Shown: positions 7,030 to 41,325 of the stretch, one piece after another | How the letters are laid out: each line of letters opens with the position of its first letter | Numbering within the stretch: position 1 is the first letter of the stretch | DNA from: Gallionellales bacterium GWA2_60_142 | GTDB lineage: Bacteria; Pseudomonadota; Gammaproteobacteria; Burkholderiales; Gallionellaceae | Direction: 5' to 3' | Length of the DNA: 64,000 bases | Assembly: GCA_001801085.1 (NCBI GenBank) | Contig: MGWR01000021.1 | Span: forward strand, 1 to 64,000 | Translations under genes and position numbers: made by a program | Notes under the pieces: model-generated | The model's input: the letters and a program-made list of their open reading frames with translations, nothing else | Databases searched by the model: none | What the model was told of the DNA's origin: nothing

Positions 7030-9559
7030 GTCCTGCTTTGAGCATGGCCGCACTCAACGGCACCGCCGCCTCGAAAAATCCATCCCACGGGTCCACCTTC
7101 AGCGCCCCGAGTCGGCGCTGCAGCGTCTCCACCGTGTAGTGATCGGAACGCACCGCGGGGCCGAGTTCGTCCCAGCGCAGCGGCACCGCCACCGGCGCAC
7201 CGGGGCGGGCGCGGGCCGAGTAGCTGGCGATGGCGGTCGAGCCGCGCGCGTTGCGCAGATAGTCGATAAATATCCTGCCGTGCCGTTTCGCCAGGCTCAT
7301 ATGGGTGGTGAGCAGCTGCGGCTCGTCCCTCGCATGCAGTTCAGATACCGCACGTGCGAACGACTTCACCGATTCCCAGTCCGCTTGTGGGTGCAGCGGC
7401 ACCACCAGATGCAGCCCCTTGCCGCCGGTGGTGCGCGGGAAGGCCGTCAAGCCCAATCCATGCAGGCGCTCGCGCAGTTCGCGTGCAGTGCGCAGCACCT
7501 CTGGCCAGGCCACTTCGGGCGCAGGATCGAGGTCGAACACCAGCAGGTCTGGGTGCTCGATGTCTTCCACCCGGCAACCCCAAACGTGAAACTCCAGCAC
7601 CCCGTGCTGCACCAGCGTCAGGATGTCGGTCAGCGAGCGCACGTAGACGTAGTCGCGCACTTCATCTTTTTCGAGGATCGCGATGCGCGGCACCGAGCGC
7701 GCCTGGCTCTTGACCAGATGCTTCTGGTAGAAGCAGGCCTCGCGTCCCTCGGGGCAGCGCAGCAGCACCAGTGGGCGATGTGCGAGATAAGGCAGGGCCC
7801 ATTCGTGGATGGACTCGTAATAGCGGGCCAGCGCCAGTTTGGTCACGCCGAGTTCCGGGTAGAGGATACGCTCGGGGTGTGTGAGTGAGGTTGCCGCGAT
7901 CTTCACCGCGCCGGCTGTCGCATGCCGCATGGGGCGGGCGGGACTCGCGGGCGCAGCCTCTTCCAGATTCGCGTCGGACGACTTCACCTGCTCCGGCTCC
8001 ACGTCTTCGCGTATGCCCAGAAAACTCGGCTGACGCAGCAGCCCCTCGCGCGTGCGTTCGGCGTACTGGACCGCGACCACCAGCGCGGGCTGCACCCAGT
8101 GCACACCGCGCGCACCTAAGTTGCTTGAATGGGGCAGCGATGCCGAGGGGGCAAAAGGCGATTCGGCGATCTCCTGTTTCTGCAGCAGCGCGTGCAACTG
8201 TTCGAGCTGGCGGTTGCTGAAGCCGGTGCCCAGCCGCCCCGCATATTCCAGCCGCCCATCGCGATAGCTGCCGAGCAGCAAGGCGCCGAAGCCGCTACGC
8301 GCGCCGGCGGGCGGCGTATAACCGCCGACCACGAACTCGGCGTGCTGCTGCGAGCATTTCACCTTCTGCCACAGCGTGCTGCGGCCGCTGCGATAGGGCG
8401 CATCGGCCCGCTTGGAGATGATGCCTTCCAGCCCGAGCGTGCAGGCCTGCTCGAAGAAGTCCGGCCCCTGTCCCTGCATATGATCCGAATAACGCACGAC
8501 ACCACCGGCTTCGTAACCCGCCGCCTGCAGCAACTGCAGCAATGCCTGCTTGCGTGCCAGCAACGGCAGCGCGGAAAGGTCATGCCCATCCAGATACACC
8601 AGATCGAAGGCCTGATAGCTCAACTGTGCGGTCTGCTTGCGGCTCAGCGCCTCTTGCAGTTCGCGGAAACTGCTCGCGCCGCCCGCGGTGAGAGCTACCA
8701 GCTCGCCATCGAGGATGGCCTGCTGCACCGGCAACGTTTCCAGTTGATGTGCCAAGACGCGCAAGCGCGCTGTCCAGTCGAGACCGTTGCGCGTCATTAG
8801 GCGCGCCTTGCTGTGCTCGATGTGCGCCACGATGCGATAACCGTCGAACTTGATCTCGTGCAGCCAGGCGCTGCCCTTCGGCGCGCGTTCAACGGCGGTG
8901 GCAAGCTGCGGCGACAGGAGGGCGGGGGCGGGGGCCGGAAGAGCGTCGTGGAGTTCTGCTGCGACGGGCGGCGCAGGGCGAGAAGGCGGTCCGGCTTCGT
9001 GGTCTGGCTGGTTCGCGGCGATCTCCTCCATGCTGCGGCCGCTGCGTACGCTCAGGTCGTCGGGATGCAGATCGTGTTGCGGATGGTCGGTGCGCTTGAT
9101 CAGCAGCCACTGCTTGTCGCTTCCGCGACCGGCCCACTTGCGCATGCGCACCAGCGTCCAGGCCCCCTTGAGTTTCGTGCCGGTGAGGATGAAGTCGATC
9201 TGCTCGTCGTCGTTGCGGCCATCGGCTTGCCACCGGCCCGCATCCCACAGCATCACCGTCCCACCGCCGTATTCGCCCTTGGGGATGGTGCCCTCGAACT
9301 CGCCGTATGCAAGCGGGTGATCCTCCACGCCGATTGCGAGGCGCTTCTCGCCGCGCTCCAGCGGCGCTCCCTTAGGTAGCGCCCAACTGCGCAGCACCCC
9401 GTCTTGCTCGATGCGCAGATCGAAATGCAGACGCCGCGCGGCATGTTTATGCATCACATAGAGATGTCCGGACTGCACCGCCGGCTCCGCGCCAGCCGGT
9501 TCGGGGCTGCGGCGGAAGTCGCGCTTGCGCTTGTATTCGTTGATGGAGGGAGTGGCCAT
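7025..9559 (-). CDS. ligD: Multidomain ATP-dependent DNA ligase LigD
   Basis: End-processing and ligation enzyme of bacterial NHEJ, acting with Ku. ATG 9559 (MATPSINEYKRKRDF) is chosen over the track's 9703 because AAAGG lies 9 bases upstream. The 844-aa protein has three domains in Pseudomonas-like order: 3'-phosphoesterase (about 20-165; HAARRLHFDLR, GTIPKGEYGGG), ATP ligase (catalytic Lys near 237 in EIKFDGYR, then LDGELVAL and GIISKRAD), and primase-polymerase (about 560-835; LILRCPEG-like segment, LVFDLDPAPEV, TTGGKGLHLVVPL). All catalytic motifs look intact. The two ku genes follow on the same strand. Confidence 0.95.
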   Translation of the reverse strand: MATPSINEYKRKRDFRRSPEPAGAEPAVQSGHLYVMHKHAARRLHFDLRIEQDGVLRSWALPKGAPLERGEKRLAIGVEDHPLAYGEFEGTIPKGEYGGGTVMLWDAGRWQADGRNDDEQIDFILTGTKLKGAWTLVRMRKWAGRGSDKQWLLIKRTDHPQHDLHPDDLSVRSGRSMEEIAANQPDHEAGPPSRPAPPVAAELHDALPAPAPALLSPQLATAVERAPKGSAWLHEIKFDGYRIVAHIEHSKARLMTRNGLDWTARLRVLAHQLETLPVQQAILDGELVALTAGGASSFRELQEALSRKQTAQLSYQAFDLVYLDGHDLSALPLLARKQALLQLLQAAGYEAGGVVRYSDHMQGQGPDFFEQACTLGLEGIISKRADAPYRSGRSTLWQKVKCSQQHAEFVVGGYTPPAGARSGFGALLLGSYRDGRLEYAGRLGTGFSNRQLEQLHALLQKQEIAESPFAPSASLPHSSNLGARGVHWVQPALVVAVQYAERTREGLLRQPSFLGIREDVEPEQVKSSDANLEEAAPASPARPMRHATAGAVKIAATSLTHPERILYPELGVTKLALARYYESIHEWALPYLAHRPLVLLRCPEGREACFYQKHLVKSQARSVPRIAILEKDEVRDYVYVRSLTDILTLVQHGVLEFHVWGCRVEDIEHPDLLVFDLDPAPEVAWPEVLRTARELRERLHGLGLTAFPRTTGGKGLHLVVPLHPQADWESVKSFARAVSELHARDEPQLLTTHMSLAKRHGRIFIDYLRNARGSTAIASYSARARPGAPVAVPLRWDELGPAVRSDHYTVETLQRRLGALKVDPWDGFFEAAVPLSAAMLKAGQ

Positions 9560-9693
9560 CGTCATCCGCCTTTCAAGCCTAGACAACATGAACTGGATGC
9601 ACATTGAACCGCGCTGACCGTGCGCTGTATATAAGGGGAATTGTGTAGAGCGACTTGGCGGGTTCGCCAGTTTGTCGAAGGGTGTTGTACTGA

Positions 9694-9722
9694 TTGACAA
9701 CATGTTGCGCTGTTGTTATTGT
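9694..9722 (+). promoter_or_regulatory. Predicted tumEA promoter with palindromic operator
   Basis: TTGACA (9694-9699), a 17-bp spacer and TATTGT (9717-9722) match a sigma-70 promoter. The perfect palindrome CAACATGTTG (9698-9707) lies in the spacer and is a candidate operator for autorepression by the HTH antitoxin. The predicted start of transcription falls at or next to the ATG at 9730, which would give a leaderless or nearly leaderless message. Confidence 0.6.
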
Positions 9723-9729
9723 CTCCAAC

Positions 9730-10026
9730 ATGAAAGCCCGCGAATTATTCAACCGCCGCGTGCCTGTCGCGGAACAGGCGTTTGCGGAACTGGTGCTATG
9801 GGAAGTGCCCGAGCCGCTTTCCGGCAGCAAGCATTGCTGCAAGTACCGGCTGGCGTTCGTGGCTGCGGGGGAGTGTGTGCTGCGTTACGACAACGAGGCG
9901 GGCAAGGGCGACCACAAGCATGAAGGCGGCAAGGAGGTGAAATACCGTTTCGTTTCGGTCGACCAATTGGTGGCGGATTTTTTCGAGGATGTGAAGAGGT
10001 GGCGCGATGAAAACAGTAACGATTGA
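9730..10026 (+). CDS. tumE: TumE-family toxin (DUF6516-like)
   Basis: A 98-aa protein with the TumE/DUF6516 pattern: an N-terminal helix, a YRLAFVAAGECVLRYDN core and the signature GKGDHKH(E)GG followed by YRFVSVDQLVADFFEDV. In the described TumE-TumA modules this is the toxin, and it precedes its HTH antitoxin as here. The track start at 9694 lies on the -35 box, so ATG 9730 is more likely. The stop lies 20 bases inside the next gene, giving coupled translation. The molecular target of TumE is not known to me; an RNA target is plausible. Confidence 0.78.
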   Translation: MKARELFNRRVPVAEQAFAELVLWEVPEPLSGSKHCCKYRLAFVAAGECVLRYDNEAGKGDHKHEGGKEVKYRFVSVDQLVADFFEDVKRWRDENSND

Positions 10027-10351
10027 TATCCGGCCTCTGGCCGACACGCTGGGCGACTTCACCCAGACATGGAAGGGCGGCAAGGCTACTGCGCCGCGCA
10101 TCAGCTTCGAATCGCCCGAGCTGCTGTTCAAGACATTGTCCGGCAAACGCTGGGAGCTGCTGAATGCGATGACGGGCGCGGGAGCCATGTCCATCCGCGA
10201 AGCCGCGCGGCGCGTGGAGCGCGACGTCAAGGCCGTGCACGGCGACGTGACCGTATTGCTTAATGCCGGGCTGTTGTCGAAAACGGACGACGGCATGATC
10301 GTATTCCCTTACGACGCCATCCATGTGGACTTCATGCTCAAGGCTGCGTGA
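10007..10351 (+). CDS. tumA: TumA-family HTH antitoxin
   Basis: A 114-aa winged-HTH protein. The helix-turn-helix is seen at about 60-100 (LLNAMTGAGAMSIREAARR, then RDVKAVHGDVTVLLNAGLL), ending with the conserved tail AIHVDFMLKAA. It overlaps tumE by 20 bases and has its own RBS (AAGAGG). It probably neutralises TumE and represses the shared promoter through the CAACATGTTG palindrome. A degenerate copy of its last codons is found after higA at 16.7 kb. Confidence 0.8.
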   Translation: MKTVTIDIRPLADTLGDFTQTWKGGKATAPRISFESPELLFKTLSGKRWELLNAMTGAGAMSIREAARRVERDVKAVHGDVTVLLNAGLLSKTDDGMIVFPYDAIHVDFMLKAA

Positions 10352-10396
10352 TGCGGTTCGAGTAGGTCTGATCGCCGTGTCGAAGATTGGAATGAG

Positions 10397-10421
10397 AAAG
10401 CCCGGCATCGCCGGGCTTTTT
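10397..10421 (+). terminator. Rho-independent terminator after tumEA
   Basis: AGCCCGGC-ATC-GCCGGGCT stem followed by TTTTT, 46 bases after the tumA stop. It has the same core as the terminators at 4.06 and 16.78 kb. Confidence 0.85.
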
Positions 10422-10492
10422 GCTATCTGCTGCTTCCGTGAGACGAGAACCGTGGGGCCGTCTTCTATCGTTGCTTTCGCCGACATCGGCGT

Positions 10493-10642
10493 TTAGTGAT
10501 GAGTGGGATCGGGAGTAATCAGCGGCTGAACATCGTGCATATGCTTCTTCGCACGTTTGGCCATCTTTTTCTCCTTCGGCGTCATCATAGGCTCCTTTTT
10601 CATGTCTCTGTCCCGGTTGGTGTGATGTGATGATTTGGGCAT
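10493..10642 (-). CDS. Unlisted 49-aa His/Lys/Met-rich small protein
   Basis: This short gene is absent from the ORF track because of its length. It reads MPKSSHHTNRDRDM, a central run KKEPMMTPKEKKMAKRAKKH, and ends PTHH. An ideal ribosome site TAAGGAG sits 7 bases before the ATG at 10642. The product is strongly basic, with five His in 49 residues at the two ends and centre, seven Met, no Cys and no membrane segment. It lies between tumA and the rlmN-like gene on the minus strand. Function is unknown; nucleic-acid or metal binding would fit the composition. Because it has a clean RBS and start, I consider it real. Confidence 0.62.
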   Translation of the reverse strand: MPKSSHHTNRDRDMKKEPMMTPKEKKMAKRAKKHMHDVQPLITPDPTHH

Positions 10643-10708
10643 GATTGAACTCCTTATATCGATTAAGGAAGTACCATGCTACTCCAATAAATTAGCCTTG
10701 TGCGGATC

Positions 10709-11725
10709 TCATTTGGTCAGGTTTTTTGCTTTGGCCGCCCGCGCCCGCAACTGCCCGCAAGCCCCCTCGATCTCCTGTCCCGCCGAGTCGCGCAACTGGG
10801 TGACGAGGCCGCGCTGTTTGAGTGTGCCGACGATGTGCGCGGCGCGTTCGGGGGATGGGCGGCGGTAGTCCAGGCCGTCCACGTCGTTGAAGGGGATGAA
10901 GTTCATGATCGCGTATTTTCCGGAGAGCAATTCGACGATGCGCTCCAGTTCGGCGTCGTTGTCGTTCACGCCCTCGATCAGCGTCCACTGGTATTGCACC
11001 GGATAGCCGGTCGCGCGAGCATAGGCTTCGGCGCGTTCGACCAGTTCCTCGACGGAGATCTGAGGCGCATGCGGCAGCAGTTGGGCGCGCAGCGTATTGT
11101 CGGTGCTGTGCAGCGAGAGTGCCAATGCCGGTTTCACCGTCTCCTGCGGCACGCGCTCGAACACCCGCAAATCCCCCACCGTAGAAAGCACCAGATTCTT
11201 GTGGCCGATGTTGCCCTGCGTGCCCAGCACATCGATTGCCTCCAGCACGTTGTCGAGGTTGTGGGCCGGTTCGCCCATGCCCATGAACACCACCTTGCTC
11301 ACCTCGCGACGTTTGCGCGCGAGCGCCACCTGCGCGACGATCTCGGCGCTGCCAAGCTGGCGCAGGAGTCCCGCGCGGCCGCTCATGCAGAATACGCAGC
11401 CCACCGCGCAGCCCACCTGCGTCGATACGCACAGTCCGCCGCGCGGCAGCAATACGCTTTCCACCATTTGGCCGTCGTTCAGTTCGACCAGCAGCCGCGC
11501 GACGCTTTCGCCGGCAGGATGTTCGCCGCGCAACTGCGCCAGCCCATCCAGCTCCGCCTCGATGGCCGGCAGCTCGCGGCGCATGGCCGCTGGAAAGAAA
11601 GTCGCCGCAGGGCTGCCCTTGCGGTCGTTCGAACTCACCTGGCTCCAGCCGCGCAGCAATCGGTCTTCGTGGCAAGGTTTGGCGCCGAGGCCGCGCAGAC
11701 GTTCGCGGAGATGGGAGATACGCAT
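10709..11725 (-). CDS. RlmN/Cfr-type radical SAM RNA methyltransferase
   Basis: Radical SAM enzyme predicted to methylate C2 of adenosine in 23S rRNA or tRNA. The [4Fe-4S] motif is CAVGCVFC (near residue 105), preceded by STQVG and followed by VVFMGMGEPAHNLDNV. The C-terminal half has LSLHSTDNTLRAQLLP and the YQWTLIEGVND segment; the cysteine used as methyl carrier lies near the end (GACGQLRAR). At about 338 aa it is shorter than housekeeping RlmN and may be a second, divergent member. ATG 11725 is chosen over the track's GTG 11749; neither has a clear RBS. The longer frame 10692-11915 is a shadow. Confidence 0.85.
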   Translation of the reverse strand: MRISHLRERLRGLGAKPCHEDRLLRGWSQVSSNDRKGSPAATFFPAAMRRELPAIEAELDGLAQLRGEHPAGESVARLLVELNDGQMVESVLLPRGGLCVSTQVGCAVGCVFCMSGRAGLLRQLGSAEIVAQVALARKRREVSKVVFMGMGEPAHNLDNVLEAIDVLGTQGNIGHKNLVLSTVGDLRVFERVPQETVKPALALSLHSTDNTLRAQLLPHAPQISVEELVERAEAYARATGYPVQYQWTLIEGVNDNDAELERIVELLSGKYAIMNFIPFNDVDGLDYRRPSPERAAHIVGTLKQRGLVTQLRDSAGQEIEGACGQLRARAAKAKNLTK

Positions 11726-35474: not shown

Positions 35475-37337
35475 TCAGTATCCCAGCGCTCGCGCACCCT
35501 GATAGAAGACGAAGCTGACCAGCCAGGCCAGCAGCAGCGACCAGCCGAGCGCGAACAGCGTGTAGCGCATGTCTTTCGCCTCGCTTCGCAGCGTGGCGAT
35601 CGCGGACAAACAGGGGGTGTAGATCAGCGTGAACAGCATGAAGCTGTAGGCCTGTACCCAGTCCAACTGCTGCGCCAGCGCGCCGCCCAGCGCCTCGCCG
35701 GAAAGGCCGTAGATCACCGCGAGCGAGCCGATGACGATCTCCTTGGCGACGAAGCCGAACAGTAGCGCGATGGTGAGGTTGGCATCGATGCCGATGGGCG
35801 CGAATATCGGCTGCAGCGCGCCGCCCAGCATGCCGGCCAGCGTGTCGGCGCTCGCCGGTGCGGCGGAGAACGGCAGATGGGTCAGCAGCCACACCAGTAC
35901 GACACCGGCGACGATGAACTTGGTGGCGCGGCGCAGGAAGTGCTGCACCTCCAGCCAGCCGCGAACCACCATCTGGCGCGGCGTGGGGAAGCGGTAGGGC
36001 GGCAGTTCCAGCACGAAGGGTTCCTGGCTGTGGAACTTGCCCCTGAACAGCAGTGCGGTCAGGATTGCCGCGGCGAAGCTGAACAAGTACAGGCTGAACA
36101 GCACCAGTGCCGCATTGGCGGGGGCGAACAGTGCGGCAGTGATGAACACGAACACCTGCAAACGCGCGGAGCACAGCGAGAACGGGATCACCAGCATCGT
36201 CAGCAGGCGTAGCGAGCGCGAGCGCATCACGCGCGTGCCCATCAGCGCGGGCACGTTGCAGCCGAAGCCCATCAGCAGCATCACGAAGCCGCGCCCGTCC
36301 AGCCCCATCCTCGCCATCAACGCGTCCATCAGGAAGGCCGCGCGCGACAGGTAGCCGCTGTCCTCGACCATCGCCATGAACAGGAAGAACAGCACGATGA
36401 TGGGCACGAAGGCCGCGACGGTCAGGTAGCCGCTGTCCTCGACCATCGCCATGAACAGGAAGAACAGCACGATGATGGGCACGAAGGCCGCGACGGTCGC
36501 GACGCCGTTGTAGACGCCGTCCAGCAGCAGGCCGGACAGCCAGGCGGGCGCGTTGGCGAATGCCGGGTCGAGCACAGTCTCGCGCAGCCAGCCCAGCAGT
36601 TCCGCGACGCCGCCCTGCAGCGGCTGGCCGAGCAGGAAGATGCCCTGAAACAGCAGATACATGATGCCGAAAAAAATCGGCAGTCCGGCCCAAGGGTGCA
36701 GCATCACGCGATCCAACTTGTCGGTGAGGTGCTCCGGCATCTGCGCCGGGACCTGCACCGCGTGTTTCAGCACGCGCGCCATCTCGGTCTCGATGTGTTC
36801 GTCCTGTTCCAGTTGCGAGCGCAATTGCTCGGCCATGCCGGGCGTGGGGTAGCGCAACGCTTTCGTGACGGCCTGCAGCGCCTCCTGGTAGCCGGTGCCG
36901 TATTTTCCGCTGAGCAGGAAGATGGGCATGTCCAGCAGCTCGGCCATCTTTTTGACGTCTATCGTGATGCCGTATTTCTTCGCCTCGTCGGCCATGTTCA
37001 GCAGCACGACGACGTTCATGTTCAGCTGCTTCAGTTGCAGCAGCAGGCTCATCTGGCGCTCGATCTGGGTCGCGTTCAGGATCACCAGCGCGAGGTCGGG
37101 CACGTTGTCGTGCAGGAAGTGGCGCACCACCTGCTCGTCGTCGGAGAAGCCGTGCAGGTCGTAGATGCCGGGCAGGTCGATGATCTCGACCATGTCGCCG
37201 CCGAGCAGAATTTTTCCGGAGAGCAGCTCGACGGTGATGCCGGGCCAGTTGCCGACGCGGGCAGCACCCCCGGTCATACGGTTGAACAGCGTGGACTTGC
37301 CGGTGTTCGGCATGCCTAGCAGGGCGATACGCTTCAT
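35475..37337 (-). CDS. feoB: Ferrous iron transporter FeoB with an internal tandem duplication
   Basis: A 620-aa Fe2+ transporter of the inner membrane. ATG 37337 overlaps feoA by 4 bases. The G domain shows GMPNTGKST (G1), WPGITVE (G2), DLPGIYD (G3) and NMAD (G4). The membrane part has two gate regions with GFGCNVPALMGTR and FGFVAKEIVIGSL. A 25-residue segment, FVPIIVLFFLFMAMVEDSGYL with flanks, occurs twice in a row (about 281-305 and 306-330) from an exact 75-bp repeat, adding one membrane span. The C-terminus lacks the extended tail of E. coli FeoB. Confidence 0.93.
   Translation of the reverse strand: MKRIALLGMPNTGKSTLFNRMTGGAARVGNWPGITVELLSGKILLGGDMVEIIDLPGIYDLHGFSDDEQVVRHFLHDNVPDLALVILNATQIERQMSLLLQLKQLNMNVVVLLNMADEAKKYGITIDVKKMAELLDMPIFLLSGKYGTGYQEALQAVTKALRYPTPGMAEQLRSQLEQDEHIETEMARVLKHAVQVPAQMPEHLTDKLDRVMLHPWAGLPIFFGIMYLLFQGIFLLGQPLQGGVAELLGWLRETVLDPAFANAPAWLSGLLLDGVYNGVATVAAFVPIIVLFFLFMAMVEDSGYLTVAAFVPIIVLFFLFMAMVEDSGYLSRAAFLMDALMARMGLDGRGFVMLLMGFGCNVPALMGTRVMRSRSLRLLTMLVIPFSLCSARLQVFVFITAALFAPANAALVLFSLYLFSFAAAILTALLFRGKFHSQEPFVLELPPYRFPTPRQMVVRGWLEVQHFLRRATKFIVAGVVLVWLLTHLPFSAAPASADTLAGMLGGALQPIFAPIGIDANLTIALLFGFVAKEIVIGSLAVIYGLSGEALGGALAQQLDWVQAYSFMLFTLIYTPCLSAIATLRSEAKDMRYTLFALGWSLLLAWLVSFVFYQGARALGY
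36348..36497. repeat. Exact 75-bp tandem duplication within feoB
   Basis: Two identical 75-base units (36348-36422 and 36423-36497), beginning CAGGTAGCCGCTGTCC and ending GCGACGGT on the plus strand, lie head to tail in frame. I compared them base by base and found no difference, which indicates a very recent event or an assembly error. Confidence 0.95.
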
Positions 37338-37579
37338 GTTCCGGACACTCCCTTGCATACATTGATCTTGGCCGCCTCGTTGCGGCGCAGCAGCACGTCG
37401 GTGGTGCCGACGCGCACCTGCAGCGGGCCGGAGAACGCGGCGCGGCGTATCAACTCGACCTGTTTGCCGCTGCGGAACCCCAGCGCCAGCAGCCGTTGGT
37501 GCAGCGCCTCTTCGGCGTGGATAGCCACTATCGTGGCGGTGTCGCCCGGTTGCAGGCTGGCAAGTGTGATCGAGGACAT
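37334..37579 (-). CDS. feoA: FeoA iron transport protein
   Basis: An 81-aa SH3-fold protein that binds FeoB and is needed for Fe2+ uptake. ATG 37579 starts MSSITLASLQPGDTATIV; typical parts are LHQRLLALGFRSGKQVELIRRAAF and VRVGTTDVLLRRNEAAKI. It overlaps feoB by 4 bases. The promoter region faces fur and holds a Fur-box-like sequence. Confidence 0.94.
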   Translation of the reverse strand: MSSITLASLQPGDTATIVAIHAEEALHQRLLALGFRSGKQVELIRRAAFSGPLQVRVGTTDVLLRRNEAAKINVCKGVSGT

Positions 37580-37609: not shown

Positions 37610-37628
37610 GATAATAGTTCTCATTTGC
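37610..37628. promoter_or_regulatory. Candidate Fur box between feoA and fur
   Basis: On the minus strand GCAAATGAGAACTATTATC agrees with the 19-base Fur consensus GATAATGATAATCATTATC at 14 positions. It lies 31 bases before the feoA start and 53 bases before fur, so it could control both divergent transcripts. Confidence 0.62.
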
Positions 37629-37680: not shown

Positions 37681-38112
37681 ATGGATAAACCCCAACCCGA
37701 TGACTTGAAAGACGCAGGCCTCAAATCCACCGTGCCGAGGCTCAATATTCTTGCCCTGTTCAAGTCCGGTCAGGAGCGCCACATGAGCGCGGAAGACGTG
37801 TACAAGCAACTGCTGGCCAAGGGCGACGACGTGGGGCTGGCTACGGTCTATCGCGTGCTGACGCAGTTCGAGCAGGCCGGGCTGCTGGTGCGCCATTATT
37901 TCGAGGGCGGCAAATCGGTGTTCGAGCTCAATCAGGGCAAGCATCACGACCACATCGTCTGTCTGCAATGCGGTCACGTCGAGGAATTCTACGATGCGGA
38001 TATCGAGTCTCGTCAGGAAAAGGTCGCTACCGAACGCGGTTTTGCCGTTCACAACCACTCGCTTCACATCTATGCGGATTGCAACAAGAAGGCGTGCCCG
38101 CACAAGCACTAA
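37681..38112 (+). CDS. fur: Ferric uptake regulator Fur
   Basis: A 143-aa metal-dependent repressor. The N-terminal winged HTH has STVPRLNILALF and DDVGLATVYRVLTQFEQAGL; the metal sites show GKHHDHIVCLQCGHVEEF (HHDH and first CxxC), HNHSLHIYADC and the C-terminal CNKKACPHKH. RBS AGGAGA precedes the ATG. It is divergent from feoAB, matching an autoregulated iron-uptake locus. It is more like Fur than Zur or PerR in the HHDHxxC region. Confidence 0.95.
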   Translation: MDKPQPDDLKDAGLKSTVPRLNILALFKSGQERHMSAEDVYKQLLAKGDDVGLATVYRVLTQFEQAGLLVRHYFEGGKSVFELNQGKHHDHIVCLQCGHVEEFYDADIESRQEKVATERGFAVHNHSLHIYADCNKKACPHKH

Positions 38113-41112: not shown

Positions 41113-41325
41113 TTACTTTGCAGCAGGAGCGGCAGCGTCAGCAGCAGGAGCAGCAGCAGCTTCGGAAGCAGCAGGAGCAGCAACAGCGTCGGAAGCAGCA
41201 GCAGGAGCAGCTTCGACAACAGCGGAAGCAGCAGGAGCTTCAACAGCAGGAGCTTCAGCAGCCTTTTCGCCACAAGCGGTCAGAGCCAGAGCCAGCAGAG
41301 CAGCAACGAGAGCGGACAATTTCAT
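41113..41325 (-). CDS. Ala/Pro-rich small lipoprotein
   Basis: A 70-aa lipoprotein with signal peptide MKLSALVAALLALALTAC (Cys 18). The mature 52 residues are almost only Ala, Pro, Glu, Ser, Val and Asp, with reiterated APAAS and EAAAAP-like units. It is a disordered, probably extended tail attached to the outer membrane. GAGG precedes the ATG at a longer than usual distance. It resembles small stress or cell-envelope lipoproteins. The plus-strand Q/K-rich frame at 41109 is its antisense shadow. Confidence 0.75.
   Translation of the reverse strand: MKLSALVAALLALALTACGEKAAEAPAVEAPAASAVVEAAPAAASDAVAAPAASEAAAAPAADAAAPAAK

Follow-up and report, generated by a model that had tools for sequence, protein, structure and literature searches.

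The closest described counterpart of the protein considered here is the FeoB of other Gallionella, which is encoded in a feoA-feoB operon. All of the full-length, intact congener FeoBs that we extracted were 595 amino acids long, with a single EDSGY motif. The cytosolic domain of G. capsiferriformans FeoB (NFeoB) also has solved structures, PDB entries 3w5i and 3w5j. For the change in gene structure itself, the nearest parallel is in Streptococcus pneumoniae, where capsule genes (type 3 locus, cap8E, tts) undergo spontaneous internal tandem duplications that are reversible and switch expression, according to the accounts of that work in PMC4243769 and PMC4022640 (citing Waite 2001, 2003). A third comparison is technical, as scaffold joins in metagenome assemblies can keep duplicate sequence despite overlap, with Ns between the copies, and repeat numbers can also be wrong (Chen et al. 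2020, PMC7111523).

The feoB gene described here shares its operon arrangement, identity and domains with the 595-amino-acid Gallionella type, but its product has 25 additional residues because the first Gate helix is repeated exactly. As in the pneumococcal capsule genes, the change is an exact, short tandem duplication within an open reading frame that is in principle removable. It differs from them in that it is in frame, lies in a transporter and is known here from sequence alone, whereas the capsule duplications are known to switch expression.

The host is an uncultured iron-oxidising Gallionella represented by a draft genome in 71 pieces (80.5% complete), and the closest named relatives found are metagenome-assembled Gallionella and Sideroxydans. 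Within the window, by which we mean the whole 64,000-nucleotide stretch of DNA analysed, feoB occupies positions 35475–37337 on the minus strand and encodes 620 amino acids plus a stop codon, equivalent to a 595-residue Gallionella-type FeoB with 25 duplicated residues. The gene had been called feoB in a first-pass annotation, and profile searches agreed, with a TIGR00437 score of 561.5 bits (cut-off 315.65) and matches to Pfam FeoB_N, Gate and FeoB_C. The G domain with the FeoB signature is present (PF02421, 169 bits against a cut-off of 27), and residues 2–202 match 3w5i with an E value of 1e-116. The membrane core is represented by Gate (PF07670, 121 bits, in two stretches) and FeoB_C (PF07664, 51 bits). 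The TIGR00437 match to the two-copy protein is split into three stretches, one of which begins at the second copy.

Upstream of feoB and slightly overlapping it is feoA (37334–37579, minus strand, ATG at 37579), and a fur-like regulator gene is divergent from the pair (37681–38112, plus strand); both were annotated from the DNA sequence. Between fur and feoA, a Fur-box-like site, GATAATAGTTCTCATTTGC (37610–37628), was recognized by eye against the consensus GATAATGATAATCATTATC, and a similar site occurs in the nearest relative (locus L002). This candidate site suggests that Fur may control both the fur-like gene and feoAB. Elsewhere in the window, we observed a GCAGCA-type repeat tract at 41120–41262, just above a terminator-like stretch and within an apparent small minus-strand gene for an Ala-rich secreted protein or lipoprotein.

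The duplication is an exact head-to-tail array of two 75-nt units at 36348–36498 (151 nt, no mismatches). Shifted by 75 nt, the sequence matches itself without interruption for 76 nt, such that 36348–36423 equals 36423–36498, a match that cannot arise by chance. Our analysis confirmed the exact in-frame 75-base duplication reported in the first-pass annotation, and the array is one base longer than the 36348–36497 given there. Each full unit comprises 25 codons in the feoB frame and encodes TVAAFVPIIVLFFLFMAMVEDSGYL; the 21-residue peptide reported earlier is present but is just the last part of this repeat. On the minus strand, the first (5', N-terminal) copy lies at 36423–36498, including one base of extra identity, and encodes residues 281–305, while the second (C-terminal) copy at 36348–36423 encodes the same peptide as residues 306–330. 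The junction between them on the coding strand reads GGCTACCTG followed directly by ACCGTCGCG. In approximately 1.25 Mb sampled of the host genome, no other exact tandem duplication had a period greater than 21 nt, apart from one low-complexity repeat gene, and 24-mers of the 75-nt unit did not recur elsewhere in the sampled sequence. In the low-complexity gene, 15- and 18-nt repeats form long arrays interrupted by a 17-N gap (L122; G000:C55, 10761–13200); the gene is likely repetitive, with an unreliable length in the draft. A transposon or other mobile origin for the feoB duplication was rejected, as no insertion sequence or target-site feature was seen at the junction and the 24-mers of the unit are absent elsewhere in the sampled genome.

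To place the duplication among relatives, we used a 51-residue peptide spanning both copies as a query against 76 genomes of the genus and against the order, where 203 of 399 genomes gave matches. Apart from the host, none of the 76 genus genomes or the 203 matching order genomes contained a full-length match to this junction peptide. Two of the longest partial matches (G383 and G333) were opened and both proved to be single-copy. Since relatives are single-copy and the junction was found in the host only, we interpret the second copy as derived and private. The comparison thus gave one copy in all other species examined, and the earlier expectation that the duplication is either recent or an artefact was borne out: the copies are identical and the duplication is absent from all relatives searched.

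The nearest relative (G009) has feoB DNA about 91% identical to that of the host, and its single unit differs at two bases, both silent. At the protein level, the host FeoB and that of the nearest metagenome-assembled genome are 96% identical over aligned columns. Synonymous divergence between the two genes is about 0.33 (dS), compared with dN values of 0.016 and 0.037 for the parts of the gene on either side of the array, and feoB is thus under strong constraint between these genomes. In another Gallionella draft, feoB is in pieces in different frames, with a 577-amino-acid frame (L022 and L042; G020:C32, about 9417–11106), which is probably a frameshift or an assembly error. Six Gallionella drafts (G026, G030, G032, G034, G035 and G096), one of them 95% complete, had no strong match to the host FeoB; they have perhaps lost it or carry a different FeoB type in its place.

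The duplicated segment is the first Gate helix, with the invariant TVAAF...EDSGYL, and both copies retain EDSGYL. It is the most hydrophobic span of FeoB (Kyte-Doolittle mean 2.71 over 19 residues), and the extra membrane helix predicted by the first-pass annotation is accordingly seen as one strongly hydrophobic span contributed by the insert. The two hydrophobic cores are separated by just six residues, EDSGYL. The loop that follows the helix (SRAAF...RVMRSRSLR) contains seven Arg by direct count and, under the positive-inside rule, should stay cytoplasmic; one added span would place it outside. It is therefore reasonable to expect, as was proposed, that adding a single span would flip the remainder of the transporter. 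Either the remaining membrane domain would invert against the positive-inside rule, or one helix copy would stay uninserted. From these features, the most likely result would be a protein that misfolds, inserts partially or loses its function, and Fe(II) import by the two-copy FeoB would most likely be reduced or lost.

Structure prediction was too poor to test topology, as the AlphaFold models had low confidence (mean pLDDT 55 for the duplicated protein and 64 for the sister protein). In the duplicated model, copy 1 was an unstructured loop (pLDDT 24–39) and copy 2 a helix, to which we give little weight. The best 50 matches of a fold search were to cytosolic-domain structures only. We note that losing FeoB function would be costly to this organism, given the strong conservation of the gene, the single FeoB_C match in the 80.5% complete draft genome and the fact that Nramp was not found in that same draft.

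Two explanations for the array are near even, and we place a real event slightly ahead of an assembly error. Under the first, which we hold at even odds, the array would be a recent, lineage-private, in-frame duplication of 25 codons, probably produced by slipped-strand mispairing, that probably impairs FeoB and is revertible. Directly after the array is a possible slippage partner, GTCGCGCGCGGCCTTC (36333–36348, minus strand), which is an imperfect direct repeat of the start of the unit, GACCGTCGCGGCCTTC; the two match at 12 of 16 positions, 10 of them consecutive, in register 75 nt apart. These two imperfect 16-nt repeats lie on either side of the first Gate helix. If they mispaired during replication and synthesis resumed from the terminal matching G, precisely this array would result, with a second helix copy and its invariant EDSGYL placed after the first. 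Slippage or recombination that removed one of the exact copies would bring back ordinary FeoB, so the two-copy allele should be transient.

We estimated how often a comparable flanking repeat, taken as a match of 10 or more lying no further than 16 nt from a breakpoint, occurs by chance. The frequency was 0.04% of positions across the window's first 36 kb, 0.14% for the sister feoB when in-frame periods were considered, and 0.46% for the feoBs of congeners with the period set at 75. This support is moderate, because the junction homology is one base and the repeat had been noticed before the test was set. Perfect homology extends over just 1 nt at the junction, and the 10-nt match is offset by 5–6 nt, which is not the textbook product of slippage and counts against a real event. 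Also counted against it are the strong conservation of FeoB, with the cost that a knockout would carry, the fragmentation of the draft into 71 pieces and the 44–94 nt overlaps between its contig ends. In its favor, the unit length (75 = 3 x 25) keeps the reading frame. There is also no evident cause for a contig break at this site, since the unit is not shared whole with the congeners examined and its 24-mers do not recur in the sampled genome. In particular, a break caused by a stretch common to a co-occurring relative was considered and rejected, as the examined congeners share at most 47 nt of the unit. Hairpin-driven slippage was likewise rejected, the inverted repeats around the site being weak and not convincing.

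The competing explanation, to which we assign a probability a little below one half, is that two contig ends with an overlap inside feoB were abutted unmerged, or that a gap closer re-used reads, and the 75-nt stretch was written twice. The identity of the two copies and the lack of the duplication in any other genome searched are consistent with such an error, and both duplicated scaffold-join sequence and wrong repeat numbers belong to the error types described for metagenomes. The host scaffolds are N-gapped drafts, and the unjoined contig ends that were readable share exact overlaps of 44, 47, 61, 62, 73, 89, 91, 92 and 94 nt, a range that brackets 75; abutting two such ends would leave a 75-nt duplicate. 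The feoB array thus resembles scaffold-overlap errors in being exact and of similar length, but it differs in having no Ns at the copy-copy junction, whereas the described class retains them. The six N gaps, of variable size (8 to 39 Ns), lie elsewhere, and the flanks of the five that were examined share no overlap. Several further points argue against an error: no second such duplication was found in the roughly 1.25 Mb sampled, an in-frame length would be expected by chance one time in three, the in-register flanking 10-nt repeat would be a coincidence, and exact overlaps are the simplest for an assembler to merge.

It is very unlikely that the array is a selected functional variant, with gating or iron flux changed by the extra helix, or a phase-variable switch operated by copy loss and gain: the frame is kept, the invariant EDSGYL is intact in both copies and the pneumococcal capsule genes offer a precedent for switching, but the duplication was seen in no relative and so gives no hint of selection or recurrence, a single additional span fits poorly with the topology, and a switch would have just two copies in a gene that is single-copy in all other species examined. 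We consider it a shade less probable again that the FeoB allele is real and reversible in a Gallionella population, and that a helix copy gained or lost by slippage tunes Fe(II) import on or off under high Fe(II).

If the array is instead an assembly error, it illustrates how an exact in-frame duplication in a draft genome from a metagenome can slip past gene calling and family cut-offs. If the slipped-strand duplication is real, it would be a natural experiment on the way a polytopic transporter deals with an additional helix, and it would represent a conserved iron importer reversibly knocked out where Fe(II) is plentiful.
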